Of a stretch of 64,000 nucleotides of DNA, positions 38,862 through 58,404 are shown piece after piece. Source of the DNA: Acrocarpospora phusangensis. GTDB lineage: Bacteria; Actinomycetota; Actinomycetes; Streptosporangiales; Streptosporangiaceae. The stretch lies in the NCBI RefSeq assembly GCF_016862995.1, contig NZ_BOOA01000014.1, positions 62,001-126,000 on the forward strand, read 5' to 3'. Made by a program: the position numbers and the translations under genes. The notes under the pieces are model-generated. The model worked only from the letters and a program-made list of their open reading frames with translations. It ran no database searches and was not told the DNA's origin. Positions within the stretch are counted from its first letter, which is position 1, and the number at the start of each line of letters is the position of its first letter.

Positions 38862-40181
38862 TCAGCGTTCGGGGGCGCCGGCGGGGACGGTGGCCGGTTC
38901 GGTGTCCTGGGCGGTGGCGACGCGGCGGACGCCGAGGACGGCTACGAGGCTGACGAGGCCGAGCGCGGTCAGGAAGAGGGCGATCGGAGTCGAGGAGTCG
39001 TAGGCGGCGTAGAGGGCGGGGAAGACGGGGGTGACGGCGCCGGCGACGGTGGCGCCGACCGCGTAGGCGACGGCGATGCCGCTGTAGCGGACCTTGAGGT
39101 CGAACATGTCGGTGAAGAGGCCGCCCTGCGCGCCGGCCATGATGCCCTGGACTATCGCGGCGACCAGGAAGGCGACCAGGGCCAGGCCGGTGCTGCCGGT
39201 GTTGACCAGGGCGAACATCGGGAGCGGCCAGATGACGGCGGTGACCGCGCCGATGGCGTAGAGCAGTTTGGGGTCGAACCGGTCGGAGAGGATCGCGGAA
39301 CCGATGATCGCGAGGATCCAGACCGAGGTGGAGGCCAGGATCAGGGTGAGCAGGGTGGTGCGGTCGAAGCCGACGACCCGGGTGCCGTACGTGAGCATGT
39401 AGACGGTCACCGCGTAGCCGATCGCGGGCGGGGCGATGGCGGCCAGGGCGCCGAGGATCAGGTTGCGGGGGTGGCGGCGGACCAGCTCGGCGAAGGGGAC
39501 CTTGATGACCGTCTTCTCGCGTTTGGCCTTCGCGAACTCCGGGGGCTCGGACAGGCGCATGCGGATGATGAGGCCGACGACCACGAGGACGGCGCTGAGC
39601 AGGAAGGGGATGCGCCAGCCGTACGAGAAGAAGGCGTCGTCGTCGAGGCCCGAGAGGGCGAGGAACGCGAGGTTCGAGGTGAGCACGCCGACCGGGACGC
39701 CGAACTGGGCGAAGCTTCCGTAGACGGCGCGCTGGCGTGGTTTCGCGTTCTCGGTGGAGATGAGCAGCGCGCCGCCCCATTCGCCGGCCACGCCGAAGCC
39801 CTGGATGAGGCGCAGGGAGACCAGCAGCAGCGGCGCGCCGATGCCGATGGCCGCGTACGTGGGCAGCACGCCGATGAGGAACGTGGACCCGCCGGTCAGG
39901 ATCAGGGTGAGGACGAGCATCGACTTGCGGCCGATCCGGTCGCCGAAGTGGCCGACGATCGCCGCGCCGAACGGGCGGATGAGGAACCCGGCGGCGAACG
40001 CCGACAGCGACGCGAGCGTGGCGGCCTCGGGGGACGCCTCGGGGAAGAAGAGCGTGGGGAACACCAGCGCGGCGGCGGTGCCGAAGATGAAGTAGTCGTA
40101 CCATTCGATCGAAGTCCCGATGAAGCTGGCCGCGAAGAGGCCCTTCATCGACGGAGGCTTGGACGTGCCATGCTGGGCCAC
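38862..40181 (-). CDS. MFS transporter, MHS family (second copy)
   Basis: This 439-residue, 12-helix carrier has SFIGTSIEWYDYFIFGTAAA in helix 1, GHFGDRIGRKSML after helix 2 and GFGVAGEWGGALLI in helix 4, as in MHS proton symporters for organic acids. I place the start at GTG 40181, which has AGGAGA 8 nt upstream; GTG 40196 is the alternative. It lies 135 nt downstream of an SDR gene and near the IclR regulator, and could bring in an aromatic acid for the gallate-type operon. It is a distant paralogue of the carrier at 13498-14829. Confidence 0.92.
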   Translation of the reverse strand: MAQHGTSKPPSMKGLFAASFIGTSIEWYDYFIFGTAAALVFPTLFFPEASPEAATLASLSAFAAGFLIRPFGAAIVGHFGDRIGRKSMLVLTLILTGGSTFLIGVLPTYAAIGIGAPLLLVSLRLIQGFGVAGEWGGALLISTENAKPRQRAVYGSFAQFGVPVGVLTSNLAFLALSGLDDDAFFSYGWRIPFLLSAVLVVVGLIIRMRLSEPPEFAKAKREKTVIKVPFAELVRRHPRNLILGALAAIAPPAIGYAVTVYMLTYGTRVVGFDRTTLLTLILASTSVWILAIIGSAILSDRFDPKLLYAIGAVTAVIWPLPMFALVNTGSTGLALVAFLVAAIVQGIMAGAQGGLFTDMFDLKVRYSGIAVAYAVGATVAGAVTPVFPALYAAYDSSTPIALFLTALGLVSLVAVLGVRRVATAQDTEPATVPAGAPER

Positions 40182-40316
40182 AAGCGCTCTCCTCACAACG
40201 GGGGTGGACGTTTCCGGGACCGTCCGCGAGCAGGCGATCCCAGGTTGCGGGGGTTGTACGGAACGTAGTCCCGCGGGCGGCGCGGGTCGCGGGTCTTCTG
40301 CCGCACCCGGACTACG

Positions 40317-41168
40317 TCATGTGTCGCGGTGTGACGTGTCGCGGTCACCCGGGGGTGACGCGACGGGCGGTGGCGTGCCGGGTGGCCCGCCGTCCACGGT
40401 GAGGGTGTGGCCGGAGATCCACCGGGCGCGGTCGCTGAGCAGGAACAGGCAGGCGTGCGCGACGTCCCACGCCGTGCCCTCGGTCCGCAGCCCGGTGCTC
40501 AGCCGCCGGGGCTCGCGCCTCTCCTCGGGCATGTTCGCCGCCGCGAACGCGCCCCAGATCATGCCGACCCGTACGCAGTTGACCCGGATGCCCCTGGGCC
40601 CCAGGGTGGCGGCCGCGCCGTCGGTGAGGTTCTCCAGACCGGCCTTGGCCACGGAGTAGACCATGCCGGGCCCGCGCGTCCCCACCGTCACCGAGGAGAT
40701 GTTCACGATCGCCCCACCCCGCGGCAGCACCGGTACGGCATGCCTGGTCACCTGCCACGCCGAGGTCAGGTTCACGTTCATCAGCTCGGCGAACCGTTCC
40801 GGCGTCACGTCGAACAACCCGGCCGGATCCCCGGACGCGACGTTGTTCACCAGCGCGTCCAGCCCGCCCAGCCGATCCACGGCCGCGGCGACGGCGTCCG
40901 CGCACTGCCGGTCCGAGGTCACGTCGGCGACCACGGCGCTCGCCTCCCCGCCGGCCGCGACGATCGACGCCACGGTCCGCTCGGCGGCGTCCGCGTCCCG
41001 GTCGAGTACGGCGACCCGCGCGCCGTGCGCGGCCAGCACCCGGCTGACGGCGTAGCCGACCCCGGGCAGCGCGCCGTTCTGTCCGGCTCCGGTGACGAGC
41101 GCGGCCCGGCCGGCCATCCACCGCGGGCCGGCGTCGGCGAAGGGATCGCTCAGGGGATCTTCGGGCAT
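40317..41168 (-). CDS. Short-chain dehydrogenase/reductase
   Basis: This 283-residue classical SDR has the cofactor motif ALVTGAGQNGALPGVGYAV (an insertion-bearing TGxxxGxG), DADAAERT after strand 2 (an acidic residue suggesting NAD+), LVNNVASGD, IVNISSVTVG and the active site YSVAKAG. It ends SGHTLTVDGGPPG. GGAGGAGCCCC precedes the ATG at 41168. Between an MHS carrier and an IclR regulator it may oxidise an aromatic alcohol, aldehyde or side-chain hydroxyl, but this is inferred only from context. Confidence 0.9.
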   Translation of the reverse strand: MPEDPLSDPFADAGPRWMAGRAALVTGAGQNGALPGVGYAVSRVLAAHGARVAVLDRDADAAERTVASIVAAGGEASAVVADVTSDRQCADAVAAAVDRLGGLDALVNNVASGDPAGLFDVTPERFAELMNVNLTSAWQVTRHAVPVLPRGGAIVNISSVTVGTRGPGMVYSVAKAGLENLTDGAAATLGPRGIRVNCVRVGMIWGAFAAANMPEERREPRRLSTGLRTEGTAWDVAHACLFLLSDRARWISGHTLTVDGGPPGTPPPVASPPGDRDTSHRDT

Positions 41169-42491: not shown

Positions 42492-42492
42492 G

Positions 42493-43782
42493 TCAGCCGG
42501 AGATCCGGGTCAGGCGGGACTTCATCTCGGTGCGCTCCAGCGATCCGGGCGGCACGAGGGTGACCGCCGCCGGCACGGTCAGCCGGGCCCGGATCAGGCC
42601 CTCGATCTCCCGGCGCAGCAGCTCCCGGTCGCCGGGCTCGTCGCCGGGCTCCACCTCGACGCGCAGCGGCGGCTCCACTCCCGGGCCGGGACTCGGCAGC
42701 ACGATCTGCATCGCTCCGTTCGTCCGGGGATGGAGGGTCTGCACCAGGTCGCGGATCGCCGTGGGGAACACGTTCACCCCGAGCACGATCAGCATGTCGT
42801 CGGTGCGGCCCACGCAGCGGATGAGCGGCGCGCCGTCCCCGGCGAGCCCGGTGACCAGCACCCGGTCCCGCGTGCGGAACCGGACCAGGGGGCAGCACTC
42901 GCGGTCCACCGAGGTGTAGACGAGTTCGCCGGAGACGCCGGGCTCGGGGTCGACGGGCTCGCCGCCGTCCGGGTCGATCAGCTCCACCAGCACGTGCCGG
43001 CCGCCGGTGAAGCGCATGCCGCCCGCGCCCGGCGGCTCGGCGAACAGCACCGGCGCCATGTCGGCGTTCCCCAGGCCCTCGGTGACGAGCGCGCCCCACT
43101 CCCGGTCCATGTGCCGCTGGAACGCCGGCTCGCCCCCGCCGGGCTCGCCGCCGACGAAGATCTTGCGGATGCCGAACTCCCGCGGGTCCCGGCCCCGTTC
43201 GCGTACGTACTCGGCCAGGTAGCGCACATACGACGGGGTGGCGTGCAGCGCGGTGACGCCCAGGGTGTCCAGCGCCTGCACCGCCTTCTCCGACGCGCCG
43301 GTGCCGATCGGGACCAGGGTGGAGCCGATGCGCTCCAGCGCGTCCCGGATCGGCAGCCCGCCCACGAACAGGGTCAGCCCGGCGCCGTGCAGCACCACGT
43401 CCTCGCGCGTCGCGCCCATGGTGAGGAACGCCCGCGCCACCATCTCGGTCCACGCCTCGGCGTCGCGCCGGGTCACGCCCACCCAGCTCGGCCTGCCGGT
43501 GGTCCCGGTGGAGGCGTGGACACGGATCACCTCGGTCATGTCCACGGCCGCGTGCAGGCCCAGCGGGGGAGCGGCGGCCTGGGAGTCGCGCAGCAGCTGC
43601 TTGTCCGTGAAGGGCAGTTTGCGGATGTCCCCCAGGGACACCAGCGCCGCCGGATCGGCGCCGTGCTCGGCGAACAGGCGGGCGTAGAAGGGAGAGCGCG
43701 CGGGCAGCCCGGCGAGCTGGGTACGGAGCATCGCGGTGACGGCGTCTCGGTCCTCAGGCGCGACGAAGCCGGGTGTGATCAC
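42493..43782 (-). CDS. Phenylacetate-CoA ligase-like (PaaK family) enzyme
   Basis: This 429-residue ANL enzyme of the PaaK group has the P-loop region VIRVHASTGTTGRPSWVGVT, YTSVDRECCPLVRFRTRD, the hinge RCVGRTDDMLIVLGVNVFPT and a C-terminal catalytic lysine region (LERTEMKSRLTRI). PaaK-type enzymes make CoA thioesters of aromatic acids. The start is GTG 43782 (VITPGF) with GGAAGGA upstream; the longer frame upstream lacks family similarity. It lies after the gallate-type operon on the same strand, so the substrate may be a lignin-derived aromatic acid rather than phenylacetate. Confidence 0.88.
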   Translation of the reverse strand: MITPGFVAPEDRDAVTAMLRTQLAGLPARSPFYARLFAEHGADPAALVSLGDIRKLPFTDKQLLRDSQAAAPPLGLHAAVDMTEVIRVHASTGTTGRPSWVGVTRRDAEAWTEMVARAFLTMGATREDVVLHGAGLTLFVGGLPIRDALERIGSTLVPIGTGASEKAVQALDTLGVTALHATPSYVRYLAEYVRERGRDPREFGIRKIFVGGEPGGGEPAFQRHMDREWGALVTEGLGNADMAPVLFAEPPGAGGMRFTGGRHVLVELIDPDGGEPVDPEPGVSGELVYTSVDRECCPLVRFRTRDRVLVTGLAGDGAPLIRCVGRTDDMLIVLGVNVFPTAIRDLVQTLHPRTNGAMQIVLPSPGPGVEPPLRVEVEPGDEPGDRELLRREIEGLIRARLTVPAAVTLVPPGSLERTEMKSRLTRISG

Positions 43783-44071
43783 GAATCGTCCTTCCGGGGG
43801 GAGCGGGGACTGCTCGTCAAGCGATCGACGCGGCCAAATCTCAACAAATCGGCCAATAACGGCGGCCACGGCGCGGTGGTTGCCTGCCGGCGCCGCGTCC
43901 GGCAGAGCCTCGGTGGTTGTCGGCGGTGCCTCACTATGCCCAGGACGCGAACCGGCCAGCCATATGACTTTCATGGCGCGGAAACCGAAATGCCCCGAAT
44001 GCGATTGTTTACCGTGACACGAAAGGCACGGCGTTTCCCGGCCGTGAACCCGCGACAATGGACGGCAATGG
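43783..44071. other. Intergenic region upstream of the PaaK-like gene
   Basis: No gene is supported. Three direct CGGCCA(A) repeats start at 43831, 43850 and 43863 within an AT-richer stretch and could be regulator contacts. The rest of the gap is filled by the tandem repeat starting at 44072. Confidence 0.4.
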
Positions 44072-44268
44072 GGACACGGTCCAGCATTCGGGCCGCGCGA
44101 TCTCCAGAAAACAGGTCCGCCCGGCGGGGCGGCGACGGAGACACGGTCAGCCTTGCAGGCTGCGGCGATCTCCAGAAGGCCCGCGAGGGCGCCCGGCGGA
44201 CCGCGGCACGGTCAGGCTCTCAGGACGCGGCGATCTCCAGGAGCAGGTCCGCGAGCGCGTCTGGCGCG
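44072..44268. repeat. Three tandem degenerate copies of the 3' end of the alpha/beta hydrolase gene
   Basis: The core GCGATCTCCAG recurs at 44097, 44165 and 44230 (period 68 and 65 nt) inside longer blocks beginning ACGGTC. The third copy is the actual gene end (antisense of LLLEIAAS-stop). The first two are decayed copies downstream of the stop. Confidence 0.75.
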
Positions 44269-44927
44269 GTGACCATCGCCTCGTGGCCGGTGGTGATCTC
44301 GTACACCGGCCAGCCCCGCGCGGCCGCCCGTTCCGCGTGCGGGGTGAACACCCGCATCCAGTCGGTGCACTCGATGAACGCCGCGGGCACGCCGTCCCCC
44401 TTGCCGGTCAGCCGGAGCGGCTCGGTGTAGGACAGCCACGGATGCGGGGTGAGCCGCGGGGTCAGCCAGTCGACGTCGGCGCGCTCGGTGACGCCCAGCA
44501 CGCTCAGCGAGCGTACGGGGATGAGCCAGCCGAACCCCGGGCCCGCCACCGACTCCCGGTAGTGCCCGGCGACGTCGGCGGGCAGCATATCGATGGCGGG
44601 CTCCCCGTCGTCGCCGACGAAGGCGTCGAGGTGGACGCGTCTGGTCAGGCGGTCCCCGATCCGGTCGGCCGCGCCGGTGACGACCTGACCGGCGTAGCTG
44701 TGCCCGACCAGCACCACGTCCCGGGCGTCGTGCGCCTCGATGAGCGCCACCACGTCCTGGATGTGGGTGCCGAGCCCGACCTGCGGGGTGAGCAGGTGGG
44801 CTCGGTCGCTGACCCCGGTCAGCGTCGGGGCGTGCACCTCGTGGCCGGCCGCGCGCAGCAGCGGAGCCACCCGCTGCCACACCCAGCCGCCATGCCACGC
44901 CCCGTGGACCAGTACGAACGTGCTCAC
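44220..44927 (-). CDS. Alpha/beta hydrolase of the methylesterase/HNL group, candidate CHMOD methylesterase
   Basis: This 235-residue alpha/beta hydrolase has the oxyanion motif FVLVHGAWHGGWVWQRV, the nucleophile elbow VLVGHSYAGQV (Ser), and the histidine in ITTGHEAMVTAPDAL. This group includes plant and bacterial methylesterases. It is the last gene of the gallate-type operon, starting with GTG overlapping the ligB stop (GTGA). Ring cleavage of 3-O-methylgallate gives a methyl ester (CHMOD), and alpha/beta hydrolases that open it are known from Sphingobium. I infer that role here; it is not shown by sequence alone. Confidence 0.85.
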   Translation of the reverse strand: MSTFVLVHGAWHGGWVWQRVAPLLRAAGHEVHAPTLTGVSDRAHLLTPQVGLGTHIQDVVALIEAHDARDVVLVGHSYAGQVVTGAADRIGDRLTRRVHLDAFVGDDGEPAIDMLPADVAGHYRESVAGPGFGWLIPVRSLSVLGVTERADVDWLTPRLTPHPWLSYTEPLRLTGKGDGVPAAFIECTDWMRVFTPHAERAAARGWPVYEITTGHEAMVTAPDALADLLLEIAAS

Positions 44928-45766
44928 GCGTTCTCCATGACGATCATCCCGGCGCCGGTCATCGAGGCGGGCGCGAAGTAGTGCCGGTGCCTGACCACGA
45001 CCTCGGGGTTGAGCGCGCCCCGCATGACGAGCCACATGATGACCTCCGCCCCCTCCCCGCCGAAGGTGTCGATGTACCGCTGCCGGCTCCAGCCCGCGAG
45101 TTTCCCGGGCTCCTCGGCGATCTCCGTGAGGAACCGCTGGTCGGCCTCCCGGTTCAGGAAGCCGGCGCGGGCTCCCTGGAGCTGGTGGGACAGGCCGCCG
45201 GTGCCGAGCACGACGAACCGCTCGTCGCTGTCGTAGCTCTCGATGGCCCGGCCCAGGGCCTGGCCGAGTTCGTACAGGCGGGCCGGGAGCGGGATCGGGT
45301 ACTGGAGCACGTTCACGAAGATGGGCACCACCCGGACCGGCCACGAGCCGGACGGCCGGCCCCAGAACAGCTCCATCGGCACCTGCAGGCCGTGGTCGAC
45401 CTTGATCTCCTGGATGATCTCCGGGTCGAAGCGGTTCTCCACCAGGCTGTCGAGCAGGTGCCAGGCGAACTCGGTCGCGCCTTCGAACGGCGGGATGGGC
45501 CGCGGCCCCCAGCCCTCGTCCACCGGGTGGTACTCGGGGGCGCAGCCGACCGCGAAGGTGGGGACGCGGTCCAGGAAGAGGGCGTTGTAGTGGTCGTTGA
45601 AGACCACCACGGCGACGTCGGGCCGGTGCTCGCGGACCCACTCCCGGGCGGGCAGGTAGCCGTCGAAGAACGGCTTCCACTCCGGCGTGTCGCGCAGGCC
45701 CTTGTCGAGCGCCGCGCCGATCGAGGGGACGTGGGAGGTGCCCAGCCCGCCGACGATTCTCGCCAC
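44924..45766 (-). CDS. ligB: Class III extradiol dioxygenase beta (catalytic) subunit, LigB-like (gallate/3-O-methylgallate/protocatechuate type)
   Basis: This 280-residue protein closely follows LigB of protocatechuate 4,5-dioxygenase. It has GLGTSHVPSIGAA with the first iron histidine, VVVFNDHYNALFLD with the second, PTFAVGCAPEYHPVDEGWGP, KVDHGLQVPM with the catalytic histidine, and VVLGTGGLSHQLQGARAG. It binds Fe(II) and splits the ring beside a hydroxyl. The start is GTG 45766 with GAAGGAG upstream, 3 nt after the ligA stop. As no ligC or ligI homologue accompanies it, gallate or 3-O-methylgallate is a better guess than protocatechuate. Confidence 0.93.
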   Translation of the reverse strand: MARIVGGLGTSHVPSIGAALDKGLRDTPEWKPFFDGYLPAREWVREHRPDVAVVVFNDHYNALFLDRVPTFAVGCAPEYHPVDEGWGPRPIPPFEGATEFAWHLLDSLVENRFDPEIIQEIKVDHGLQVPMELFWGRPSGSWPVRVVPIFVNVLQYPIPLPARLYELGQALGRAIESYDSDERFVVLGTGGLSHQLQGARAGFLNREADQRFLTEIAEEPGKLAGWSRQRYIDTFGGEGAEVIMWLVMRGALNPEVVVRHRHYFAPASMTGAGMIVMENA

Positions 45767-45769
45767 GGA

Positions 45770-46132
45770 TCACTCCTTCTTCCCGAGCCGGTCCCGCAGG
45801 AACGACTCGTGGTCCATGCCGGCCTGGTGGGCGCCGATCTCGGTGATGCGGATCGGGTCCACCGCGGAGATCTTCAGGATGAAGAAGAGGTTGCCGCCGA
45901 GGCGGACCATCTCCCGCCAGTCGCGGGCCAGCACCGCCGCCTTCTCCTCCTCGGTCAGGCCGTACCGGTCCAGGTAGGCGGGCTCGTCGGTGCGGAAGGC
46001 CGCGCGGTTGGCGGGGTCGCCCAGGCCCATGGCCATCTTGTTGAGGCGGTAGCCGCGGAGCTGGCGTGGCCGGTCCAGGAGGGGCGTGTCCGGAATGCGG
46101 TCCGGCTCTTCCATCTCTTCCATCTCTTCCAT
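45770..46132 (-). CDS. ligA: Extradiol dioxygenase alpha subunit, LigA-like
   Basis: This 120-residue all-helical subunit contains RGYRLNKMAMGLGDPANRAAF, YLDRYGLTEEEKAAVLARDW and RLGGNLFFILKIS, the order seen in LigA of protocatechuate 4,5-dioxygenase. It caps the active site of the beta subunit. The N-terminus carries a 9-nt triplication (MEEMEEMEEP), so three in-frame ATGs compete; the first (46132) has GGGAGGA at the best distance. It sits between ligM-like and ligB-like genes with gaps of 14 and 3 nt. Confidence 0.93.
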   Translation of the reverse strand: MEEMEEMEEPDRIPDTPLLDRPRQLRGYRLNKMAMGLGDPANRAAFRTDEPAYLDRYGLTEEEKAAVLARDWREMVRLGGNLFFILKISAVDPIRITEIGAHQAGMDHESFLRDRLGKKE

Positions 46133-46146
46133 GGGGGGTTCCTCCC

Positions 46147-47541
46147 TCAGGCCGAGGCGCGCCAGCCGCCGTCCGCGTAGACCCTGCGGGCGACCTCGGC
46201 GTACGGGACCGGGCTCACCGTGGCGCCGACCTCGACCTGCGCGTGCTCCTCGACGGTGAGCTTGGCGGTGCCGCCGCCGGGCTCCCCCCACACCAGGGTC
46301 ACCTGGGCGCCCGGCTCGGCGTGCTCGGCGTCGAGCATGGCCAGGGTCAGCATCCGGCGCTCGTTCCAGCTGTAGCCGATCCAGGTCGAGATGCCGGCGG
46401 GTTCTCCGTTGACCGTCACCAGGTCGTACGGATGCATCGAGTAGACCGCGGAGGGGAACTCGAACCATTTGGCGGGCAGCCCGTGTTCGAGCTGGGAGTT
46501 CATGGCCTGGAGGAAATCGGGGGCGTCCAGGGCGAGGGTGACCTTCCTGCGGTGCGGGCGGGTCGCCATGGCCTCCAGGGCCTCCCGGCCGACGAAGTCG
46601 TGGTCGAACTTGACGAACGGGCCGTAGCCGAGGTCCCACGGCGTCAGGTAGTAGTCCTCGACGCGGTCGGACACGAAGCTGCCGCCGATGGAGGCCGCGG
46701 CCTCGTAGCCGTCGGCCGGGAGCCACTGGCGGTAGCTCTTGAGCGCGTCGCCCGTGTAGATCGCGGGCAGGGGCGAGGGGATCCAGCCGGACTCCAGGGT
46801 GTTGGTGGAGTACGCCCGGCCGCCCACCAGGCGCATGCCGTACTCCCGGCCGGCCTCGACGAGCGCGCGGTGGATCTCCTCGCCTTCGGTCCACGGCCCG
46901 AACAGCTCGTAGCCGGGCTGCCCGGCCATGCCGTGGCGGAGCGCGCGCACCGGTCGGCCGGCGATGGTGACCGTCGTCATGTGGAAGAACTTCAGGTCCG
47001 GGGCCGGCCCGCCGGTCGCCTTCTCGATCACCCTGGCCGCGTTCGGCCCCTGGATCTGGTACCGGTACGACGTGCGGTTGAACGGATCCGGCCGGGCCGC
47101 GGAACGCTCGTCGAGGGTCACGCGCACGTCGTGGCCGCCGGTCTCGGCGTGGAAGCGCACCCAGTTCAGGGCCGGGATGCGGCCGACCAGGTTGAAGGTG
47201 TCCTCGGCCAGGTGGAAGAGGATGCCGTCGCCGATGACGTAGCCGTCGGGCGTGCACGGCACGTACTGCTTCGCCGTGTTCACCGGGAACCTGGCGAAGC
47301 TGTTCACCCCCAGGGACGACAGCAGTCTGAGGGCGTCCGGGCCTTCGACCAGCAGTTCCGCCATGTGGTACGACTGGTTGAACAGGACGCAGGTGTGCTG
47401 CCAGGCGTGCTGCTCGTCGCGCCAGTTGGTGTACTCCGGCGGCACCCCGGGGTAGACGTTCGGCCCGGCGGGGAGATTGCGCAGATGGTCCGCCGGGTTC
47501 GCGACTCCGTGGAGAACGTCTTCGAGGCTCTTGCGGGTCAT
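46147..47541 (-). CDS. ligM: Tetrahydrofolate-dependent aryl O-demethylase, LigM-like (vanillate/3-O-methylgallate)
   Basis: This 464-residue GcvT-fold aminomethyltransferase homologue parallels LigM of Sphingobium along its length. It has PPEYTNWRDEQHAWQHTCVLF, KQYVPCTPDGYVIGDGIL, RYQIQGPNAARVIEK, RAYSTNTLESGWIPSPLPAIY and GYGPFVKFDHDFVGREALEAM, with the C-terminal SPVPYAEVARR. LigM moves the methoxy methyl group of vanillate or 3-O-methylgallate to tetrahydrofolate. I chose the ATG at 47541 (MTRKSLEDVL), with AAGGAGAG upstream. It precedes ligA by 14 nt. The metF-purU operon nearby would recycle the 5-methyl-THF product. Confidence 0.93.
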   Translation of the reverse strand: MTRKSLEDVLHGVANPADHLRNLPAGPNVYPGVPPEYTNWRDEQHAWQHTCVLFNQSYHMAELLVEGPDALRLLSSLGVNSFARFPVNTAKQYVPCTPDGYVIGDGILFHLAEDTFNLVGRIPALNWVRFHAETGGHDVRVTLDERSAARPDPFNRTSYRYQIQGPNAARVIEKATGGPAPDLKFFHMTTVTIAGRPVRALRHGMAGQPGYELFGPWTEGEEIHRALVEAGREYGMRLVGGRAYSTNTLESGWIPSPLPAIYTGDALKSYRQWLPADGYEAAASIGGSFVSDRVEDYYLTPWDLGYGPFVKFDHDFVGREALEAMATRPHRRKVTLALDAPDFLQAMNSQLEHGLPAKWFEFPSAVYSMHPYDLVTVNGEPAGISTWIGYSWNERRMLTLAMLDAEHAEPGAQVTLVWGEPGGGTAKLTVEEHAQVEVGATVSPVPYAEVARRVYADGGWRASA

Positions 47542-47572
47542 GTGTCTCTCCTTGCTGATAGGCGAGGCGCTG

Positions 47573-48301
47573 CTAGTCCCGGTCCGCGTCATCGGCGTCT
47601 GCGTCGGCGGCGTCTACGTAGCGGACGCCGAGGCGGTCCAGGGTGGCGCGCAGGCCGTACAGGTCGAGGCCCAGGACGCCCTCCCGGAACTTGTCGCGTC
47701 TGGCGGCTTCGGCGGCCATCCGCGCGGTGGCCTCCCCGGCCACGGCGGGCGCGTCCCGGCGGGCCACCACGAGGACTCCGTCGTCGTCGGCCACCAGGAC
47801 GTCGCCGGGACAGACGCGCGCGCCGGCGAGCACGACGGGCACGTTCACCGAGCCGGGGCTCGCCTTGACCGTGCCCTGCGCGCTGACCGCCCGCGACCAG
47901 ACGGGGAAGCCCATCGCGGTCAGCTCCCGCACGTCCCGCACGCCCGCGTCGATGACCAGCCCGGCCACGCCGCGGACGCGCAGCGCGGTGGCGAACAGCT
48001 CGCCGAACATCCCGTCGTGGGACAGCGACGTGGTGGCCACGGCCAGGATGTCGCCGGCGCCGCACTGCTCGATCGCGGCGTGGATCATCAGGTTGTCCCC
48101 GGGATGGCTGAGCACGGTGACCGCGCGGCCGGCGATGCGCGCCCCCGAGTAGATCGGGCGCAGCGCCGGCGAGAGCAGCCCGCGCCGGCCCATGGCCTCG
48201 TGCGCGGTGGCCACCCCGGCCTCGGCGAGGACTTTCACGGCCGCCGCGTCCGGGCGGGCCTTGGTGCGCACGATGACGTGCCCGTCGCTGAAGCCGCTCA
48301 T
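47573..48301 (-). CDS. ligK: 4-Carboxy-4-hydroxy-2-oxoadipate aldolase, LigK/GalC-like (RraA fold)
   Basis: This 242-residue RraA-fold protein contains GVATAHEAMGRRGLLSPALRPI, VLSHPGDNLMIHAAIEQCG, HDGMFGELFATALRVRG and VIDAGVRDVRELTAMGFPVW (Arg/Asp of the divalent-metal site). It ends with PGDVLVADDDGVLVV and LDLYGLR. This matches LigK/GalC, which splits 4-carboxy-4-hydroxy-2-oxoadipate into pyruvate and oxaloacetate, the last step of gallate and protocatechuate 4,5-cleavage. Its ATG overlaps the upstream hydratase stop (ATGA), and ligM follows after 31 nt. The Asp-rich C-terminal tail (DAADADADDADRD) is unusual. Confidence 0.92.
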   Translation of the reverse strand: MSGFSDGHVIVRTKARPDAAAVKVLAEAGVATAHEAMGRRGLLSPALRPIYSGARIAGRAVTVLSHPGDNLMIHAAIEQCGAGDILAVATTSLSHDGMFGELFATALRVRGVAGLVIDAGVRDVRELTAMGFPVWSRAVSAQGTVKASPGSVNVPVVLAGARVCPGDVLVADDDGVLVVARRDAPAVAGEATARMAAEAARRDKFREGVLGLDLYGLRATLDRLGVRYVDAADADADDADRD

Positions 48302-49029
48302 ATCAGCTCGTCCCCGACCACGGGGAACACCCGCTGGAACGCCTCGGCCTGCACGACGCCGGCGGGCGCGCCGTTCCGCCTGGCCTGGACGCCTCGCCGC
48401 CGCCCCAGCTCGGTGTAGTACTCGATCAGGTGCCCCTGGGCGGACATGACCTCCATGGCCTTGCGCTTGCGGTCGAACACCGGCGTGACGTCCAGCAGCA
48501 GGTTGGGCGTGAAGCCGCACACCTCCGGCTGGTGCGGTTCGAACATGAGCACCTGCGTGGCGCCGATGGGCGTGCCGGCCGGGTCGTGCCCCATCGCCTG
48601 CGCGATCATGCGCGTGCGCAGCGCCGTCGCGTGGGCGGTGTCGTGGTCGAGGTTGTACGGGTCGTTCGCGACATGCGTCAGCAGCACGTCCGGCCGCGCC
48701 TCGCGCAGGGCCGCGACGATCCGGTCCCGGTCCCCGTCGGCCACCGTCAGCGGGTAGTCGCCCAGGTCGTAGAAGTCGACCCGCACCCCCAGCGCGGCGG
48801 CGGCCGCCTCGGCCTCCTCGCGGCGCACCCGCTTGACCGTCTCCATGTCCATGCCCGGCCGCGACCACAGACCCTGCGACTCGCCCCGCTCGCCGAAACT
48901 CAGGCAGATCACCCGTACGGCGTCGCCCCGCGCCGCCGACAGCGCCAGCGCGCCCCCCGCCCGCCACACGAAGTCACCGGAATGCGCGGTGACGGCCACG
49001 ATCGAGCGAGGCGTCCGAGATTCGGTCAT
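48298..49029 (-). CDS. galB: PIG-L-family hydrolase/hydratase, GalB-like 4-oxalomesaconate hydratase
   Basis: This 243-residue LmbE/PIG-L fold protein has the zinc motif VTAHSGDFVWRAGGA (AHxxD), LSFGERGESQGLWSRPG, YDLGDYPL and THVANDPYNLDHDTAHAT with further metal histidines. Most PIG-L proteins are sugar deacetylases. GalB of Pseudomonas putida is a member that hydrates 4-oxalomesaconate, and the following gene here is a LigK/GalC aldolase, so the hydratase role is strongly favoured by context. It is the first gene of the six-gene operon. The upstream region carries two ACGTAG motifs. Confidence 0.88.
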   Translation of the reverse strand: MTESRTPRSIVAVTAHSGDFVWRAGGALALSAARGDAVRVICLSFGERGESQGLWSRPGMDMETVKRVRREEAEAAAAALGVRVDFYDLGDYPLTVADGDRDRIVAALREARPDVLLTHVANDPYNLDHDTAHATALRTRMIAQAMGHDPAGTPIGATQVLMFEPHQPEVCGFTPNLLLDVTPVFDRKRKAMEVMSAQGHLIEYYTELGRRRGVQARRNGAPAGVVQAEAFQRVFPVVGDELI

Positions 49030-49123
49030 GTCTCCGCTTCCCGCTTCCGCCGGACGAGGATGCGCCCCCGGCCTGGTCCCCCGGGGCTGGTAAGGACGTT
49101 ACACACGGCCCGTCGAGGCACGG

Positions 49124-49164
49124 ATTGCGCAATTGACGCGCTCCACGTAGGACACATGACGTAG
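49124..49164 (-). promoter_or_regulatory. Upstream regulatory region of the gallate-type operon
   Basis: It contains the perfect palindrome ATTGCGCAAT (49124-49133) and two ACGTAG units as a direct repeat 14 nt apart (CACGTAGG 49144-49151, ATGACGTAG 49156-49164). The latter motif recurs upstream of the isomerase-like gene and of metF. Confidence 0.45.
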
Positions 49165-49175
49165 AGCCGCGCGGG

Positions 49176-49853
49176 TCAGATCGGGGGCGAGACCAGCCCT
49201 TCGCGCATGGCCACGAGCACCGCCTGCGTGCGGGAACGCAGCCCCAGCTTGCCGAGCAGGTTGCTCACGTGTGTCCGCGCCGTACGCTCGCTGATCACCA
49301 GTTCGGTGGCGATCTCCCGGTTGGAGCGGCCCTGGGCGATCAGCACGAGCACGTCCCGCTCCCGGCTGGTCAGCGCGGCGACGCCGCTGTGCGGGGCCCG
49401 CATCTTCTGGGCCAGCCGCCGGGCCACGGCCGTGTCCAGGAACACCTCGTCGTTGGCGGCGGCGTAGATCGCGGCGGCCACCTCGGAGGGGCCGGCGTCC
49501 TTGAGCAGGTAACCGGCCGCGCCGTTGGCCAGGGCGGCGTGGATGCGCTGCACCTCGCCGAAGCTGGTCAGGATGACCACCCGCACGCTCGGGAAACGCC
49601 TGGTGATCTCCGCAGTGGCCTCGACGCCGTCCATCTTGGGCATCATCAGGTCCATCAGCGCCACCCTCGGCAGCGGCTGCCGCCGTACCTTCAGGGACTC
49701 CAGGCAGTCGAGGGCGTCCCGTCCGTTGGCCGCCTCCCCGGCCACCTCGACGTTGTCCAGCGCCTCCAGGTACGCGACGACGCCCCGCCGTACCACGGCG
49801 TGGTCGTCCACCACGAGGACTCCGATGGTGCCGGCGTCCGGCTGCGCGGTCAT
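49176..49853 (-). CDS. NarL/LuxR-type response regulator
   Basis: This 225-residue protein has a CheY-like receiver (VLVVDDHAVVRRGVVAYL, phospho-acceptor Asp in VALMDLMMPKMDGVEAT, Thr in VVILTSFGE, Lys in YLLKDAGP). A C-terminal LuxR helix-turn-helix follows (LTSRERDVLVLIAQGRSNRE, RTARTHVSNLLGKLG). Its ATG overlaps the kinase stop by 4 nt (ATGA), so the two are a coupled pair. It lies 146 nt upstream of the gallate-type operon on the same strand; that operon and the divergent metF unit are its likely targets. Confidence 0.95.
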   Translation of the reverse strand: MTAQPDAGTIGVLVVDDHAVVRRGVVAYLEALDNVEVAGEAANGRDALDCLESLKVRRQPLPRVALMDLMMPKMDGVEATAEITRRFPSVRVVILTSFGEVQRIHAALANGAAGYLLKDAGPSEVAAAIYAAANDEVFLDTAVARRLAQKMRAPHSGVAALTSRERDVLVLIAQGRSNREIATELVISERTARTHVSNLLGKLGLRSRTQAVLVAMREGLVSPPI

Positions 49854-51538
49854 GGACGCCTCGGCCTACGGGCGGTCGGGACCCGGTGGAGTTCCGCCGG
49901 CAAGGAGGGAGGAAGCGGGAGTTCCAGGCGGACGACGGTGCCCTCGCCGGGGCCGGAGCGGGTGGTGAGCACGCCCGCCCAGCGGTCGGCGCGTTCCCGC
50001 ATCGCCGTCATGCCGAAGCCGCCCTCCTCCGCGGGCAGGCCGGCCAGGCCGCACCCGTCGTCGGCGATCTCGCAGGTCAGCCGCCGCCGGGTGCGGCGTC
50101 CCGTCAGCCCCGCGGTGATGGTGACGACCGAGCCGTGCGAGTGCTTGACGCTGTTGTGCAGGGCTTCGGCGATGACGCGGTAGGCGTCCTCCCGCAGCTC
50201 CGGCTCCAGGTCGTCCAGCTCGTGCCGCGGATCGATGATCGACAGCCGTACGTCGAGACCGGTCCTGGCCGTGGTCGACTCGGCCAGGGCGGCCAGGGCC
50301 GCGGGCAGCCCCTGGTCGGCCGACGGGGTGGGATGCAGCTCGGTGACCATCGCCCGCAGGTCGCCCAGGACCGCCTTGGAGATCTGGCCGAGTTCCCCCG
50401 CCACCCGCATCACGTACGCCGAGTCCACGACGCTGCCCCGGCCGGACAGCATGCCGAGGGACTCCACCTGCATGCCCATGGAGAAGACGTGCTGGACCAC
50501 GGAGTCGTGCAGGTCCCTGGCCAGGCGCTGCCGCTCCTCCCGCCGCGCCACCTCCCGCTCCCGCTCCAGCAGGCTGGCGTAGTGCACGGCCAGCGCCGCC
50601 TGGTCGGCCATCGCCAGCAGGAAGTCCAGGGTGGTCCCGCCGATCTCCTGGCCGGGCGCGTAGAAGGCGTTGAGGATGCCGACCGGCTCGCCGTGCACGA
50701 GTAGGGGCACGCTCGCGAACCAGTCCCATTCCGGCGCCCGCATGAGGTCGCGCAGGGGCGCCCAAGCCGGGTCGGACATGACGGCGTCGTATCGGTGCGG
50801 TACGACGACCGGCTTCCGCGACGTGAACGCGTCGATCATCCGCAGCTCGGCGCCGGCCTCCGCGCACTCCAGGAGCAGGTCGAAGAAGTTCGCCGCCTCG
50901 CCGAACCCGGCCACGCCCATCAGATCCAGCGAGGGGACTGCTGAGCCTACCCTGCGGGGGAGTCGCCTCCCTGATATAGTTCTGGTGTTCGAAACGGGCA
51001 GGGCTTGTCCGTCGCCTACCTCAAGCGGGGAAAGCGAGAAGCCGCTTCCTTCAGGGAGCGGAGGAGTCACGACCTGGAAACGTTCCCGGGCGGAGTTGAC
51101 GGTCAGGATCTGCACGCTGGCCAGGGCGTCGGCTTCCAGCACCTCGTTGGCGAGCGCGTCCAGGGTGCTGCTCAGCGAACGTTTGGCGGCCACGCGGCTC
51201 GCCGCGCTGGCGATCGCGGCGAGCCGCCGCTGGTGGCGCCGGCTCTCGGTGACGTCCTGGAAGACCACCAGGCGATCACCCCGGCCGGTCAGCCGCGTGA
51301 TCCGGTACGCGAACTCGCGGCGCGTCCCCGACGGCGGCTCCCACCCGGTGACGCCTTCGGTCTCCGCGTCGTCCGCGCCGAACGGGGACGCGGCCCCCGC
51401 GACGCCGGCCGCCTCGCAGAGCCGTACGGCGGCCGGGTTGGCCTGGACGAAACGCCCGGCCGGGTCGATGACGGCGATCCCGTCCGGCGTCCGCTCCAGC
51501 AGAGCGCCCGCGTCGAAAACCGGAGCCGCGTCCACCAC
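49850..51538 (-). CDS. PAS-GAF sensor histidine kinase with an insertion in the GAF domain
   Basis: This 562-residue cytoplasmic kinase has a PAS domain (residues 10-100, GIAVIDPAGRFVQANPAAVRL), a GAF domain (about 105-325), a HisKA_3 dimerisation helix with phospho-acceptor His344 in ARDLHDSVVQHVFSMG and a HATPase domain (EALHNSVKHS, IADDGCGLAG, GGFGMTAMRERA). Residues about 157-206 interrupt the GAF fold between FQV and MGVAGFGEAANFF and are encoded by an IS200/IS605-like fragment. The start is GTG 51538 with GAGGAGGA upstream. No membrane segment is seen, so it senses an internal signal, perhaps an aromatic ligand bound by GAF. Whether the insert inactivates sensing is unknown. Confidence 0.92.
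   Translation of the reverse strand: MVDAAPVFDAGALLERTPDGIAVIDPAGRFVQANPAAVRLCEAAGVAGAASPFGADDAETEGVTGWEPPSGTRREFAYRITRLTGRGDRLVVFQDVTESRRHQRRLAAIASAASRVAAKRSLSSTLDALANEVLEADALASVQILTVNSARERFQVVTPPLPEGSGFSLSPLEVGDGQALPVSNTRTISGRRLPRRVGSAVPSLDLMGVAGFGEAANFFDLLLECAEAGAELRMIDAFTSRKPVVVPHRYDAVMSDPAWAPLRDLMRAPEWDWFASVPLLVHGEPVGILNAFYAPGQEIGGTTLDFLLAMADQAALAVHYASLLEREREVARREERQRLARDLHDSVVQHVFSMGMQVESLGMLSGRGSVVDSAYVMRVAGELGQISKAVLGDLRAMVTELHPTPSADQGLPAALAALAESTTARTGLDVRLSIIDPRHELDDLEPELREDAYRVIAEALHNSVKHSHGSVVTITAGLTGRRTRRRLTCEIADDGCGLAGLPAEEGGFGMTAMRERADRWAGVLTTRSGPGEGTVVRLELPLPPSLPAELHRVPTARRPRRP
50921..51070 (+). mobile_element. Mini-insertion resembling the right end of an IS200/IS605 element
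   Basis: About 150 bp, lying in frame inside the kinase gene, has a composition unlike the flanks. Near its end it reads AAAGCGAGAAG, then a perfect 8-bp stem-loop at 51042-51061 (CCGCTTCC-TTCA-GGGAGCGG), then AGGAGTCAC. The order GAGAA, TTCA-loop hairpin, GGAG(g/a)-TCA is what I know from the right ends and omega-RNA 3' ends of TnpB-carrying elements. The left boundary near 50921-50930 is set only by resumption of GAF similarity. No transposase is encoded. Confidence 0.5.
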
Positions 51539-51641
51539 CGCCGACGTCCTCCTCGCTGGGCCGCCTCACCGGAACCCATGATGCCCCCGTTCCCCTGCGG
51601 GGGCACTACTTCGGCCGCGACGGCGACGCAGAATACGCCAT

Positions 51642-51651
51642 TTGACGTAGG
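51642..51651 (+). promoter_or_regulatory. GACGTAGG motif upstream of the isomerase-like gene
   Basis: TTGACGTAGG lies 80 nt upstream of the ATG at 51731, in the region divergent from the kinase gene. Related motifs occur at 49144-49164 and 52008-52017. Confidence 0.4.
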
Positions 51652-51730
51652 CGAGATGGCCGCCACACCCATGCCCGCGCACCCCGGGCGCTCTACCGTC
51701 GGAACACCCGCATCTCCCCAGGAGGATTCG

Positions 51731-52006
51731 ATGGAGTTCCTCGTCCGCTTCGAGACCCGCCTGCCGGACGGCATGGGCGACGCGGAACGCCTGCGCCTGC
51801 GGGACGCGGAACGCGCCCGGGCGATGGAGCTGCGGGAGGCCGGGATCCTGAAACGGCTCTGGCGGGTGCCGGGCCGCCGCGCCGTCGTCGGCCTGTGGGA
51901 GGCCCCCGACGCCACGGCCCTGCACGACGCGCTCGCGTCGCTGCCGCAGTTCCCGTGGCTGGACGTGACCGTGGAAGCCCTGGCCACGCACCCGCAGGAG
52001 GCCTGA
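51731..52006 (+). CDS. Muconolactone delta-isomerase-family small protein
   Basis: This 91-residue protein begins MEFLVRFETRLPDGMGDAER and contains AMELREAGILKRLWRVPGRR and LWEAPDATALHDALASLPQFP, the ferredoxin-like pattern of the muconolactone isomerase (CatC) family. CatC shifts a double bond in muconolactone, but no other ortho-pathway gene is present. Next to ring-cleavage and C1-recycling genes, it may instead isomerise or tautomerise a ring-cleavage product of the gallate-type route. GGAGGATT precedes the ATG at 51731. It heads the plus-strand unit with metF and purU. Confidence 0.85.
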   Translation: MEFLVRFETRLPDGMGDAERLRLRDAERARAMELREAGILKRLWRVPGRRAVVGLWEAPDATALHDALASLPQFPWLDVTVEALATHPQEA

Positions 52007-52007
52007 C

Positions 52008-52017
52008 CCTACGTCGA
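52008..52017 (-). promoter_or_regulatory. GACGTAGG motif upstream of metF
   Basis: The complement reads TCGACGTAGG. It lies in the 122-nt gap between the isomerase-like gene and metF, directly after the former's stop codon. Confidence 0.4.
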
Positions 52018-52128
52018 TTGTCGTGCTCCGGCTAGGACGGGCGCGGGCCCGAATGCCGTCATCCGCGCCGTTTCCGGGAACGCGCCGATGCCTACCGTCG
52101 GTGGGGACCCTCCGGCGAAAGGCCCGCG

Positions 52129-52992
52129 ATGCCCCTGCCCAGCGTGGCCGCTCCCGCGCTCGCCCAGGCGTTGAACACCGTCAGCTACGAGATCCTGCCG
52201 CTGCGGAGCGCCGAGGAGTCGGTGCTCGCCCACGTCCCCCGCACCATCCCGCTGACGATCACCACGACCGAGGCGAAGGGCCTGGCGCCCACGCTGGACC
52301 TGGCGCGGCGGCTGGCGGGCAGCGGCTACTCGGTCTCCCCGCATCTGGCGGCGCGTCTGGTGAGGGACAAGCGGGAGCTGGCCGACATCGTCGGCCAGTT
52401 GCGGGAGGCGGGGGTGGACAGCGTCTTCGTCATCGCGGGGGACGCGGCGGAACCCGCCGGCTGTTTCCCCGACAGCCTCGCGCTGCTGGAGGTACTGGAG
52501 GTGAACGGGCACCACTTCCGGCGGATCGGGATCGCCGGCTACCCCGAAGGCCACGCCGGCATCAGCCGGGAGCTGATCGACCGCGCGCTGGAGCGCAAGG
52601 CCGGGCACGCGACGCATGTCATCACCCAGATGTGCTTCGACGCGGCCACGACGGCCGCCTGGGCGCGCGGCCTGAAAGCGCGGGGGATCGGGCTGCCGAT
52701 CCACGTCGGCCTGCCCGGCGCGGTCAACCGGCAGCGGCTGATCCGCATCTCCGCCGGACTCGGCCTCGGCCAGTCGGCCCGCTTCCTGCGCAAGCAGCGG
52801 GGCCTGCTGTGGCGTTTCCTGCTGCCCGGCGGCTACCGGCCCGACCGGCTGGCCGTACGGCTGGCGCCGCGCATCCCCGACCCCGGCGACGAGATCCGGG
52901 GGTTCCACCTCTTCACGTTCAACGAACTGGAGCGGACCGAGGCGTGGCGCCGTGCGCTGCTGGCCCGCATCACCGACCTGGAGCACCGATGA
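52129..52992 (+). CDS. metF: Methylenetetrahydrofolate reductase-like enzyme
   Basis: This 287-residue TIM barrel of the MetF family contains NTVSYEILPLRSAEES, PLTITTTEAKG, GVDSVFVIAGDA, RRIGIAGYPEGHA (family GYPEgHp), ATHVITQMCFDAATTAAW with the FAD/folate glutamine and LPIHVGLPGAVNRQRL. In most cells MetF reduces methylene-THF. Paired with a THF-dependent O-demethylase it is expected to run in the oxidative direction, turning 5-methyl-THF into methylene-THF, as in Sphingobium lignin catabolism. It overlaps purU by ATGA. AAAGG lies upstream of the ATG. Confidence 0.88.
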   Translation: MPLPSVAAPALAQALNTVSYEILPLRSAEESVLAHVPRTIPLTITTTEAKGLAPTLDLARRLAGSGYSVSPHLAARLVRDKRELADIVGQLREAGVDSVFVIAGDAAEPAGCFPDSLALLEVLEVNGHHFRRIGIAGYPEGHAGISRELIDRALERKAGHATHVITQMCFDAATTAAWARGLKARGIGLPIHVGLPGAVNRQRLIRISAGLGLGQSARFLRKQRGLLWRFLLPGGYRPDRLAVRLAPRIPDPGDEIRGFHLFTFNELERTEAWRRALLARITDLEHR

Positions 52993-53864
52993 CCAGCTAT
53001 GAGCAGACCGACGGGCAGTGCGTGCTGACGCTGTCGTGCCCGGACACGACGGGCGTCGTCTTCGCCGTCGCCGGATTCCTGTACGAGCGGCGCTACACGA
53101 TCGTGCAGTCCCAGCAGTTCGAGGACCCCGGCACCCGCACCTTCTTCATGCGCGTGCAGTTCGCGCACGAGGACGGGCACGCGCTCTCCGTCACCGGCCT
53201 GCGGGAGGAGTTCGAGGACGTCGCGGCCCGGTACGGGATGACCTGGCGTCTCGTCGGCGCGCACGAGCGGCAGCGCGTGCTGATCATGGTGAGCCGGTTC
53301 GGGCACTGCCTCAACGACCTGCTCTTCCGCAACTCCCTCGGCGAGCTCAACCTGGACGTGGCGGCGGTCGTCTCCAACCACCCCGATCTCGCGCCGCTGG
53401 CCGTCGGCCACGGCGTGCCGTTCCAGCACATCCCGATCTCGCCCGCCACCAAACCGGAGGCCGAGGCCCGGCTCCTGGAGCTCGTCCGGGCCGAGCGCGT
53501 CGACCTGGTCGTCCTGGCCCGGTACATGCAGATCCTCTCGCCCGAACTGTGCAAGCACCTGGACGGCCGGGCGATCAACATCCACCACTCCATGCTGCCC
53601 AGCTTCAAGGGCGCGCGCCCCTACCAGCAGGCCCACGAGCGCGGCGTCAAGTTCGTCGGCGCCACCGCGCACTACGTCACGCCCGACCTCGACGAAGGCC
53701 CGATCATCGAGCAGCAGGTCACCCGGGTGGACCACTCGATCAGCGCCGAGGAGTTCGCCGCGCGCGGCCGGGAGGTGGAGTGCCGGGCGCTGGCCCGCGC
53801 CGTACGGTGGCACACCGAGAACCGCGTGGCCCTCAACGGCCACAGAACCGTGGTCCTGCGCTGA
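52989..53864 (+). CDS. purU: Formyltetrahydrofolate deformylase
   Basis: This 291-residue enzyme has an N-terminal ACT domain (LTLSCPDTTGVVFAVAGFLY) and a formyltransferase-type hydrolase domain with VLIMVSRFGHCLNDLLFRN, ILSPELCKHLDGRAINIHHS, MLPSFKGARPYQQAHERGVK and the catalytic Asp in YVTPDLDEGPIIEQQ. It splits 10-formyl-THF to THF and formate, regenerating the methyl acceptor. Start ATG 52989 overlaps the metF stop. Together with metF it forms a C1-disposal branch for the LigM-type demethylase; the intermediate FolD step is not encoded in the window. Confidence 0.95.
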   Translation: MTSYEQTDGQCVLTLSCPDTTGVVFAVAGFLYERRYTIVQSQQFEDPGTRTFFMRVQFAHEDGHALSVTGLREEFEDVAARYGMTWRLVGAHERQRVLIMVSRFGHCLNDLLFRNSLGELNLDVAAVVSNHPDLAPLAVGHGVPFQHIPISPATKPEAEARLLELVRAERVDLVVLARYMQILSPELCKHLDGRAINIHHSMLPSFKGARPYQQAHERGVKFVGATAHYVTPDLDEGPIIEQQVTRVDHSISAEEFAARGREVECRALARAVRWHTENRVALNGHRTVVLR

Positions 53865-58403: not shown

Positions 58404-58404
58404 C

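Follow-up and report, generated by a model that had tools for sequence, protein, structure and literature searches.

What does a compact group of aromatic-degradation genes in the actinomycete Acrocarpospora phusangensis break down, and which of the neighboring genes belong with it? The stretch of DNA analyzed here, called the window, comprises 64,000 nt of contig NZ_BOOA01000014.1, and feature coordinates are given as window positions. An earlier note had described six genes at 44220-49029 as a self-contained operon for the degradation of 3-O-methylgallate (3MGA) and gallate. Comparison of the locus with its relatives makes it rather probable that the genes instead form a linear cluster for syringate catabolism under the control of a two-component system. 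Gene families, gene order, its conservation, and a shared promoter palindrome are observed features of the sequence. From these we infer the substrates, the role of an isomerase, and the sensing of a pathway compound.

The six reading frames are all open, lie on the minus strand, and are packed as in an operon, with 4-bp overlaps (ligK with galB, and the hydrolase gene with ligB) or gaps of 3-31 bp. Family and structure searches agree on the enzyme families that had been named for them. The galB gene (48298..49029) encodes a PIG-L fold protein (PF02585, 79 bits) of the type that hydrates 4-oxalomesaconate (OMA) or 2-keto-4-carboxy-3-hexenedioate (KCH), and its closest solved structure is a 4-oxalomesaconate hydratase (PDB 5cgz, E 9.4e-68). 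The RraA-like product of ligK (47573..48301) passes the equivalog model PRK09262 for LigK/GalC aldolases of 4-carboxy-4-hydroxy-2-oxoadipate (CHA) (330.8 bits, cut-off 179) and most closely matches a solved CHA aldolase (PDB 3noj, E 8.7e-67). The GCV_T family demethylase (46147..47541), for which LigM (5tl4) is the closest structure, matches the DesA-type tetrahydrofolate-dependent syringate O-demethylases (NF047633, 843.9 bits, cut-off 800). The small subunit (LigA/MgaA type, 45770..46132; PF07746, 98.1 bits; 1b4u_A, E 5.5e-19) and the catalytic subunit (LigB/MgaB type, 44924..45766; PRK13364, 358 bits, cut-off 290; LigB Pfam family, 212 bits) of a class III extradiol dioxygenase correspond to the two chains of LigAB (1b4u). 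The last gene (est, 44220..44927) encodes an alpha/beta hydrolase (PF12697 Abhydrolase_6, 69.8 bits) that is a candidate methylesterase, in the role of MgaC or DesC, for 4-carboxy-2-hydroxy-6-methoxy-6-oxohexa-2,4-dienoate (CHMOD).

The six-gene boundary is too narrow, because the conserved block runs on to 53864. Upstream of galB on the same strand are genes for a NarL/LuxR-type response regulator (49176..49853; PF00072 and PF00196) and a histidine kinase (49850..51538; HisKA_3, HATPase_c, GAF, and PAS domains). A divergent unit on the plus strand encodes a muconolactone-isomerase-like protein (51731..52006; PF02426, 101.2 bits), a divergent homolog of methylenetetrahydrofolate reductase (MTHFR) (52129..52992; PF02219, 34.5 bits, cut-off 24), and the formyltetrahydrofolate deformylase PurU (52989..53864; TIGR00655, 324.2 bits, cut-off 285.95), the last two genes overlapping by 4 bp. 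Judged by its conserved gene order, the predicted cluster thus extends from 44220 to 53864. The description as self-contained also has to be dropped, since the six genes include no tautomerase of the known pathways and need folate recycling, and since the cluster has its own regulators.

In the proposed route, DesA would demethylate syringate once, passing the methyl group to tetrahydrofolate (THF) and giving 3MGA and 5-methyl-THF. The LigAB pair, acting like MgaAB, would open the ring of 3MGA to yield the methyl ester CHMOD, from which the alpha/beta hydrolase would remove methanol to leave 4-carboxy-2-hydroxymuconate (CHMA). The isomerase-like protein would shift a double bond or tautomerize CHMA/OMA into the form that GalB hydrates, GalB would then produce CHA, and LigK would split CHA into pyruvate and oxaloacetate. 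The MTHFR homolog, a presumed FolD, and PurU would oxidize the methyl group to formate and regain THF. The kinase might sense a pathway compound, and the NarL-type regulator would activate three promoters through an 18-bp palindrome, which probably also places an uptake gene under the same control.

Demethylation and ring opening

The demethylase had been taken for a LigM-type enzyme that yields gallate or protocatechuate, but the curated model and the tree both assign the predicted protein to the DesA type. It exceeds the cut-offs of two NCBIfam models, that for syringate O-demethylase at the score given above and that for the vanillate/3MGA demethylase LigM at 622.9 bits (cut-off 580). In a tree of 121 rows, 114 of them different, it falls inside an 85-row DesA clade (Shimodaira-Hasegawa-like approximate likelihood ratio test [SH-aLRT] 100), which is named from the curated model, SYK-6 DesA itself being outside the rows of the tree. 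The LigM sequence of 5tl4 groups elsewhere, together with 18 rows that come from 12 genomes in the family of the window organism. Tyr244 of the window protein aligns with Tyr247 of LigM, which we take to be the catalytic residue. A DesA-type enzyme points to the conversion of syringate to 3MGA as the likely step, with gallate probably not an intermediate.

A conserved methyl-transferring tyrosine is mentioned in PMC9296663 (this and the other PubMed Central [PMC] articles named here are drawn on as excerpts), which also reports DesA-like demethylases in Actinomycetota (Solirubrobacterales, Thermoleophilaceae, and Rubrobacter); its excerpted text describes no linked ring-opening cluster, regulator, or isomerase for them. 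Within the window's own order (345 genomes, the basis of all order-wide counts), proteins over the DesA cut-off are present in eight genomes, one of which (G148) has two. A separate locus, in a metagenome-assembled genome (MAG) of Candidatus Planktophila (L083), carries a desA that nearly matches those in a Janthinobacterium MAG and in one further MAG contig; it might not be an actinobacterial gene at all but the result of misbinning.

The ring-opening dioxygenase is encoded by separate ligA and ligB genes, as in class III extradiol enzymes of the LigAB/MgaAB type, and the fused protein of ~420 amino acids typical of strict gallate dioxygenases (DesB/GalA) is not found at the locus. LigB conserves H12, N57, H59, H125, H194, and E241, which correspond to the iron ligands and catalytic residues given for DesB. 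Kinship with unrelated LigB-fold proteins of the MEMO/DODA type, which the earlier note had named as one outcome that would refute its proposal, was rejected because these residues are present and the PRK13364 cut-off is passed. At the specificity positions of DesB, which weakly favor a route without gallate, DesB Thr13 is Val in the window LigB, and DesB Thr267 is retained in one alignment and changed in another. Counted along a doubtful alignment, DesB Glu377' and Tyr391' correspond to Leu86 and Gly100 of LigA, and the same alignment places Ser where the DesB paper gives Phe for LigAB.

Solved relatives of the hydrolase include the plant methylesterases SABP2 and polyneuridine-aldehyde esterase as well as hydroxynitrile lyases, in keeping with the methylesterase function already suggested for it. 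Ring opener, methylesterase, GalB, and GalC are therefore encoded together, which is the gene set of the linear 3MGA pathway (MgaABC plus GalBC). The genome has its own protocatechuate 3,4-dioxygenase elsewhere (TIGR02422, 327 bits, cut-off 296), so the cluster is not needed for protocatechuate, and a role in its breakdown seems unlikely.

An isomerase beside the hydratase and aldolase

The known OMA tautomerases GalD and LigU belong, we presume, to the PrpF family (PF04303), and the window genome has no match to this family. Its sole PF02426 match is the protein of the divergent unit, which clears the gathering score (26.7) by a wide margin and falls below the CatC equivalog (TIGR03221, 73.4 bits, cut-off 130.6). 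The best solved relative is 1mli (E 3.5e-15), and the nearest solved relatives as a group are muconolactone isomerase and chloromuconolactone dehalogenases.

A search of the order with this protein gave 75 matches in 62 genomes. The neighborhoods of 48 matches were covered, 19 of them in the window, L114-L118, L134, L135, and L169-L179 and 29 in L180-L208, whereas the remaining 27 matches are 30-46% identical to the window protein. In a tree of 59 rows and 90 columns, whose root is unknown and whose inner forks are weak, the cluster-type proteins form a single 23-row clade (support 98/83). CatC and ClcF lie outside it, grouped with L207 and L208 (100/100). This clade occurs in 20 genomes of the order, 18 of which have a match to est, galB, ligK, ligA, ligB, or desA within ~7 kb. 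The 28 loci compared outside the clade yield a single weak est-like match (38%, L201) and none to the other five genes. These loci (L180 and L182-L208) carry isomerase-like proteins 30-60% identical to that of the window, and only two group with CatC.

The esterase gene lies immediately 5' of the isomerase gene at 14 loci, namely L037, all 11 of L169-L179 (on the same strand), and L209/L253 and L210/L254. The latter two come from genomes of another class of the phylum and also carry ligA, ligB, galB, ligK, MTHFR, and purU within 19 kb. Glu27, which we take to be the catalytic residue, is kept in all 22 cluster-type rows, and Asn52 of CatC/ClcF is replaced in all 22. The window protein thus shares Pfam family, length, and Glu27 with CatC and ClcF but differs in clade, in the residue at position 52, and in gene neighbors.

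PrpF proteins over the cut-off are found in 120 of the 345 genomes. Neighborhoods with flanks of up to 1.5 kb were compared at 31 PrpF loci, 28 among the best-scoring of the order-wide search and three from another PrpF search; galB or ligK lies within 1.5 kb at 24 of them and the isomerase at none. Two of the remaining seven (G160 and G149) have galB/ligK a few kb off. At the loci covered, then, galB-ligK has either PrpF or the isomerase as its partner. In the alphaproteobacterium Chelativorans xinjiangense (L040), a single stretch contains both desA and the series galB-ligK-PrpF.

Esterase, isomerase, galB, and ligK occur with three kinds of demethylase: DesA as in the window, a LigM-type enzyme, or a Rieske protein with a VanA_C domain. 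The LigM-type head is seen at L170 (901.5 bits, cut-off 580), with relatives at L171, L172, L175, L176, and L179, where no ligK match was seen. In L169, L173, and L174, the Rieske head is the VanA_C protein, accompanied by a reductase and another kind of LigB, while L177 and L178 carry only the kinase, regulator, esterase, and isomerase genes. That the core stays the same while the demethylase varies is the strongest reason to place the isomerase after ring opening. As an observation in its own right, L169:7405-15001, L173, and L174 encode a VanA-type oxygenase, a reductase, a distant LigB-family protein (30-35%), LigK, GalB, the esterase, the isomerase, a kinase, and a regulator, a set that resembles an oxygenative counterpart to this route, present in three further genomes.

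The isomerase-like protein is thus, by gene linkage, a candidate for a new kind of tautomerase. We put at about even the chance that its clade represents a third, unrelated CHMA/OMA tautomerase beside PrpF (GalD/LigU) and SnoaL (MgaD), within a modular esterase-isomerase-GalB-LigK cassette of Actinomycetota that has interchangeable DesA, LigM, or Rieske VanA heads and often a linked two-component system. If true, this role fills the missing step and adds a new enzyme activity to a well-known family. No OMA tautomerase of the muconolactone isomerase type is named in the titles and abstract openings found in the open-licence PMC literature.

Regulation, conservation, and origin

The kinase has a HisKA_3 domain and the regulator combines a receiver with a GerE domain, as in two-component systems of the NarL type. 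The kinase is probably cytosolic, with no strongly hydrophobic segment (highest 19-residue hydropathy 1.39). An 18-bp palindrome, CTACGWCANNTGWCGTAG, occurs upstream of galB (49147..49164, two mismatches), between the kinase and isomerase genes (51633..51650, two mismatches), and upstream of the MTHFR gene (52009..52026, three mismatches). The promoter pattern TACGTCA-N2-TGWCGTA is a 7-2-7 inverted repeat and a putative regulator site; this is, we assume, the site pattern of NarL. A fourth copy (40312..40329, two mismatches) lies ~116 bp upstream of a minus-strand gene for a major facilitator superfamily (MFS) metabolite:H+ symporter (38862..40196; TIGR00883, 363.6 bits, below the cut-off of 443), which is a tentative regulon member for uptake. 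A symporter homolog (69%) in Nonomuraea cypriaca (L121) is likewise preceded by the palindrome.

Similar sites recur in the gaps before galB (or desA), between the kinase gene and the divergent unit, and before the MTHFR gene. Three sites with up to three mismatches are present in the cluster promoters of the window, L114-L120, and L037, where one precedes desA rather than galB, and L121 has two, near desA and the kinase gene. In the window, three sites with up to two mismatches (two in the cluster and one before the MFS gene) compare with 0.01 expected in shuffles, and four with up to three mismatches compare with 0.34. The whole genome has four places with up to two mismatches, those three and one other. 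Because the pattern itself derives from these loci, their agreement with it is in part circular. The DNA fold of the gap between the regulator gene and galB is unremarkable (z 0.19).

The same gene order recurs in other actinobacterial genera, as the earlier note had proposed checking, and this argues that the operon is not due to chance. The series HK-RR-galB-ligK-desA-ligA-ligB-est (HK, histidine kinase; RR, response regulator) with divergent isomerase and MTHFR genes is found in the window, G154, G041, G038, and G148 (C112), and Phytoactinopolyspora halotolerans (L037) has the same cluster with est moved to the divergent unit. The regulators at other actinobacterial desA loci that have one are 76-93% identical to that of the window. 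An MTHFR homolog (65-76%) is present at seven of nine other actinobacterial desA loci; none was seen at L119 and L121, whose contigs end 0.5 and 1.5 kb beyond the kinase gene. PurU is encoded at the locus in the window, G154, G322, Nonomuraea longispora, and P. halotolerans (L114, L116, L120, and L037 beside the window). Relatives of MTHFR and PurU occur together at 26 of 74 named desA loci not labelled actinobacterial. In SYK-6, the methyl group taken up by DesA/LigM is thought to pass via MetF, FolD, and LigH (PMC6888825). The MTHFR homolog and PurU might likewise perform the first and last folate-recycling steps for the demethylase, releasing formate and THF. The second G148 locus, on an N. 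cypriaca contig (L121), holds only desA and the kinase gene of this set. This second desA, with its two palindrome sites, lies near the MFS symporter gene with sites of its own, and a fuller cluster is present elsewhere in that genome.

The ten actinobacterial DesA rows (SH-aLRT 99) are placed among proteobacterial sequences, where a Hyphomicrobiaceae MAG is their partner (SH-aLRT 99). Nine cluster LigB rows, drawn from the compared loci only, join Chelativorans sp. J32 (100/100), apart from SYK-6 LigB and DesB, and the ligB of Chelativorans sp. J32 shares its stretch of DNA with a desA. Phylogenies of the demethylase and LigB, which the earlier note had called for, nest both beside alphaproteobacterial relatives, and the simplest reading of these trees would be transfer from an alphaproteobacterium-like source.

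Competing readings, known pathways, and neighboring genes

The route of the earlier note, in which the demethylase acts as LigM on 3MGA or vanillate, gallate or protocatechuate is ring-opened, and the esterase has a side activity, appears quite unlikely. Although Novosphingobium demethylases take several substrates (PMC8091115) and sister Nonomuraea clusters combine a LigM-type enzyme with the same partners, this route leaves the conserved methylesterase without a substrate, and model and tree place the demethylase with DesA. The passing of the LigM cut-off does make demethylase specificity a matter of degree, but LigB stands apart from the gallate enzyme DesB, with Val for Thr13, and protocatechuate has its own dioxygenase in this genome. 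It is rather unlikely that the isomerase acts on a lactone by-product such as cyclized CHMOD while tautomerization is spontaneous or due to GalB. In its favor, the nearest solved relatives are muconolactone isomerase and chloromuconolactone dehalogenases, CHMOD cyclizes spontaneously to 2-pyrone-4,6-dicarboxylate (PDC) (PMC12314914; PMC8091115), and a Pseudomonas strain still grows, at half the level, once its isomerase MgaD is lost (PMC12314914). However, either this protein or PrpF is the neighbor of galB/ligK at the loci covered, as expected if both serve one step, and in Nonomuraea deserti (L135) it is tied to galB-ligK in a 13.8-kb stretch in which no esterase was seen. A muconolactone isomerase of the ordinary catechol ortho pathway that merely neighbors the cluster is highly improbable: the protein shares PF02426 with such enzymes but falls short of the CatC cut-off, belongs to a separate clade, and is conserved alongside est/galB/ligK across several genera and into a second class of the phylum. 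A leftover catechol-pathway enzyme was rejected on the same score and clade.

Several observations weigh against the syringate cluster with an isomerase in the tautomerase step, the LigM score among them. Pseudomonas sp. NGC7 keeps half its growth on losing its isomerase MgaD (PMC12314914), so the isomerase may be dispensable. In N. longispora (G160) the isomerase gene is beside a ligK fragment only, and clade member L181 (G339, on a 6.8-kb contig) has no linked pathway gene. Isomerase-clade genomes have PrpF almost as often (6 of 20, namely G322, G149, G160, G328, G329, and G339) as the others do (114 of 325 over the cut-off), so its depletion was rejected as evidence and the argument rests on local gene linkage instead. 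No galB/ligK lies beside desA in G322, N. longispora, and N. deserti, where PrpF is encoded elsewhere, and the G322 locus also has no est. The locus lacks purU in G041, G038, and G148 (L115, L117, and L118), and the MTHFR homolog is far below the TIGR00676 equivalog cut-off (49.8 versus 293.7). The ligK of G148 reads as two overlapping pieces, and the reversed control pattern for the palindrome also gives two sites genome-wide. Those two tblastn pieces (L118:8309-8755) might reflect a frameshift or sequencing error. In place of the N. longispora fragment (L134:8259-9112), N. deserti (L135) has both galB and ligK, which might mean that N. longispora retains a decayed second cluster; another galB-ligK set and PrpF are encoded elsewhere in that genome (L136).

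The syringate pathway proposed here is of a known kind. In Pseudomonas sp. NGC7, the linear route runs from 3MGA through CHMOD, CHMA, OMA, and KCH to CHA by means of MgaAB, MgaC, MgaD, GalD, GalB, and GalC, and mutants support its LigAB-like, hydrolase, isomerase, GalB, and GalC steps (PMC12314914). Likened here by gene families rather than direct sequence comparison, both systems have a two-subunit LigAB-like opener of 3MGA, an alpha/beta-hydrolase methylesterase, and GalB/GalC, and neither the excerpted account of the NGC7 route nor the route proposed here includes gallate or a PDC hydrolase. The differences are DesA in place of the Rieske demethylase VanA1B1, a muconolactone-isomerase-like protein where NGC7 has SnoaL-type MgaD and GalD, added folate recycling genes, and a linked two-component system in place of GntR and LysR proteins. 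The sphingomonads SYK-6 and N. aromaticivorans (DesA, LigM, LigAB, DesZ, DesB, DesC/D, LigI, LigJ/K/U, metF-ligH) share the DesA-type demethylase, LigAB-type dioxygenase, LigK, and folate-based one-carbon recycling. Their routes are branched, in separate operons under MarR- or IclR-type repressors and LigR (PMC6888825; PMC12314914), whereas the window has one linear set, with a GalB-type hydratase for LigJ and PurU for LigH. The Pseudomonas putida gallate pathway (GalA, GalD, GalB, GalC) shares the GalB and GalC/LigK homologs, but the window locus has no fused gallate dioxygenase, its genome has no PrpF, and a demethylase and methylesterase are present.

Some soil actinomycetes with this cluster probably break down syringate, in line with the syringyl-lignin route that had been suggested. 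The view that such a set is unusual for actinomycetes also stands; the ortho route is described as the main one for protocatechuate in Actinobacteria (PMC8431788), and complete VanA1B1-headed syringate routes have been predicted by BLAST in some Actinomycetes (PMC12314914). No DesA-headed syringate cluster in an actinomycete is described in the open-licence PMC literature, as judged by titles and abstract openings, and the literature found offers little experimental basis for the use of syringyl (hardwood) lignin by these organisms. A compact regulated set with built-in methyl recycling provides a pathway open to direct testing, as well as parts for the production of PDC or pyruvate from lignin.

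Some features of the surrounding DNA deserve mention. Cytochrome bd oxidase subunits I and II are encoded at 57027-59424, with a flavin-dependent monooxygenase-like gene and a PadR regulator gene upstream, and no link to the cluster was seen. A short-chain dehydrogenase/reductase gene, an IclR (PcaR/PobR-like) regulator gene, and a PaaK-like coenzyme A ligase gene (40317-43740) adjoin the cluster and could represent an extra upstream step or unrelated neighbors; homologs (76-85%) are near the cluster, on the opposite side, in L115 and L117. The sequence just 3' of the hydrolase gene, at 44060-44243, contains degenerate direct repeats (38 nt at 71% and 45 nt at 80%), and one repeat copy overlaps the 3' end of that gene.

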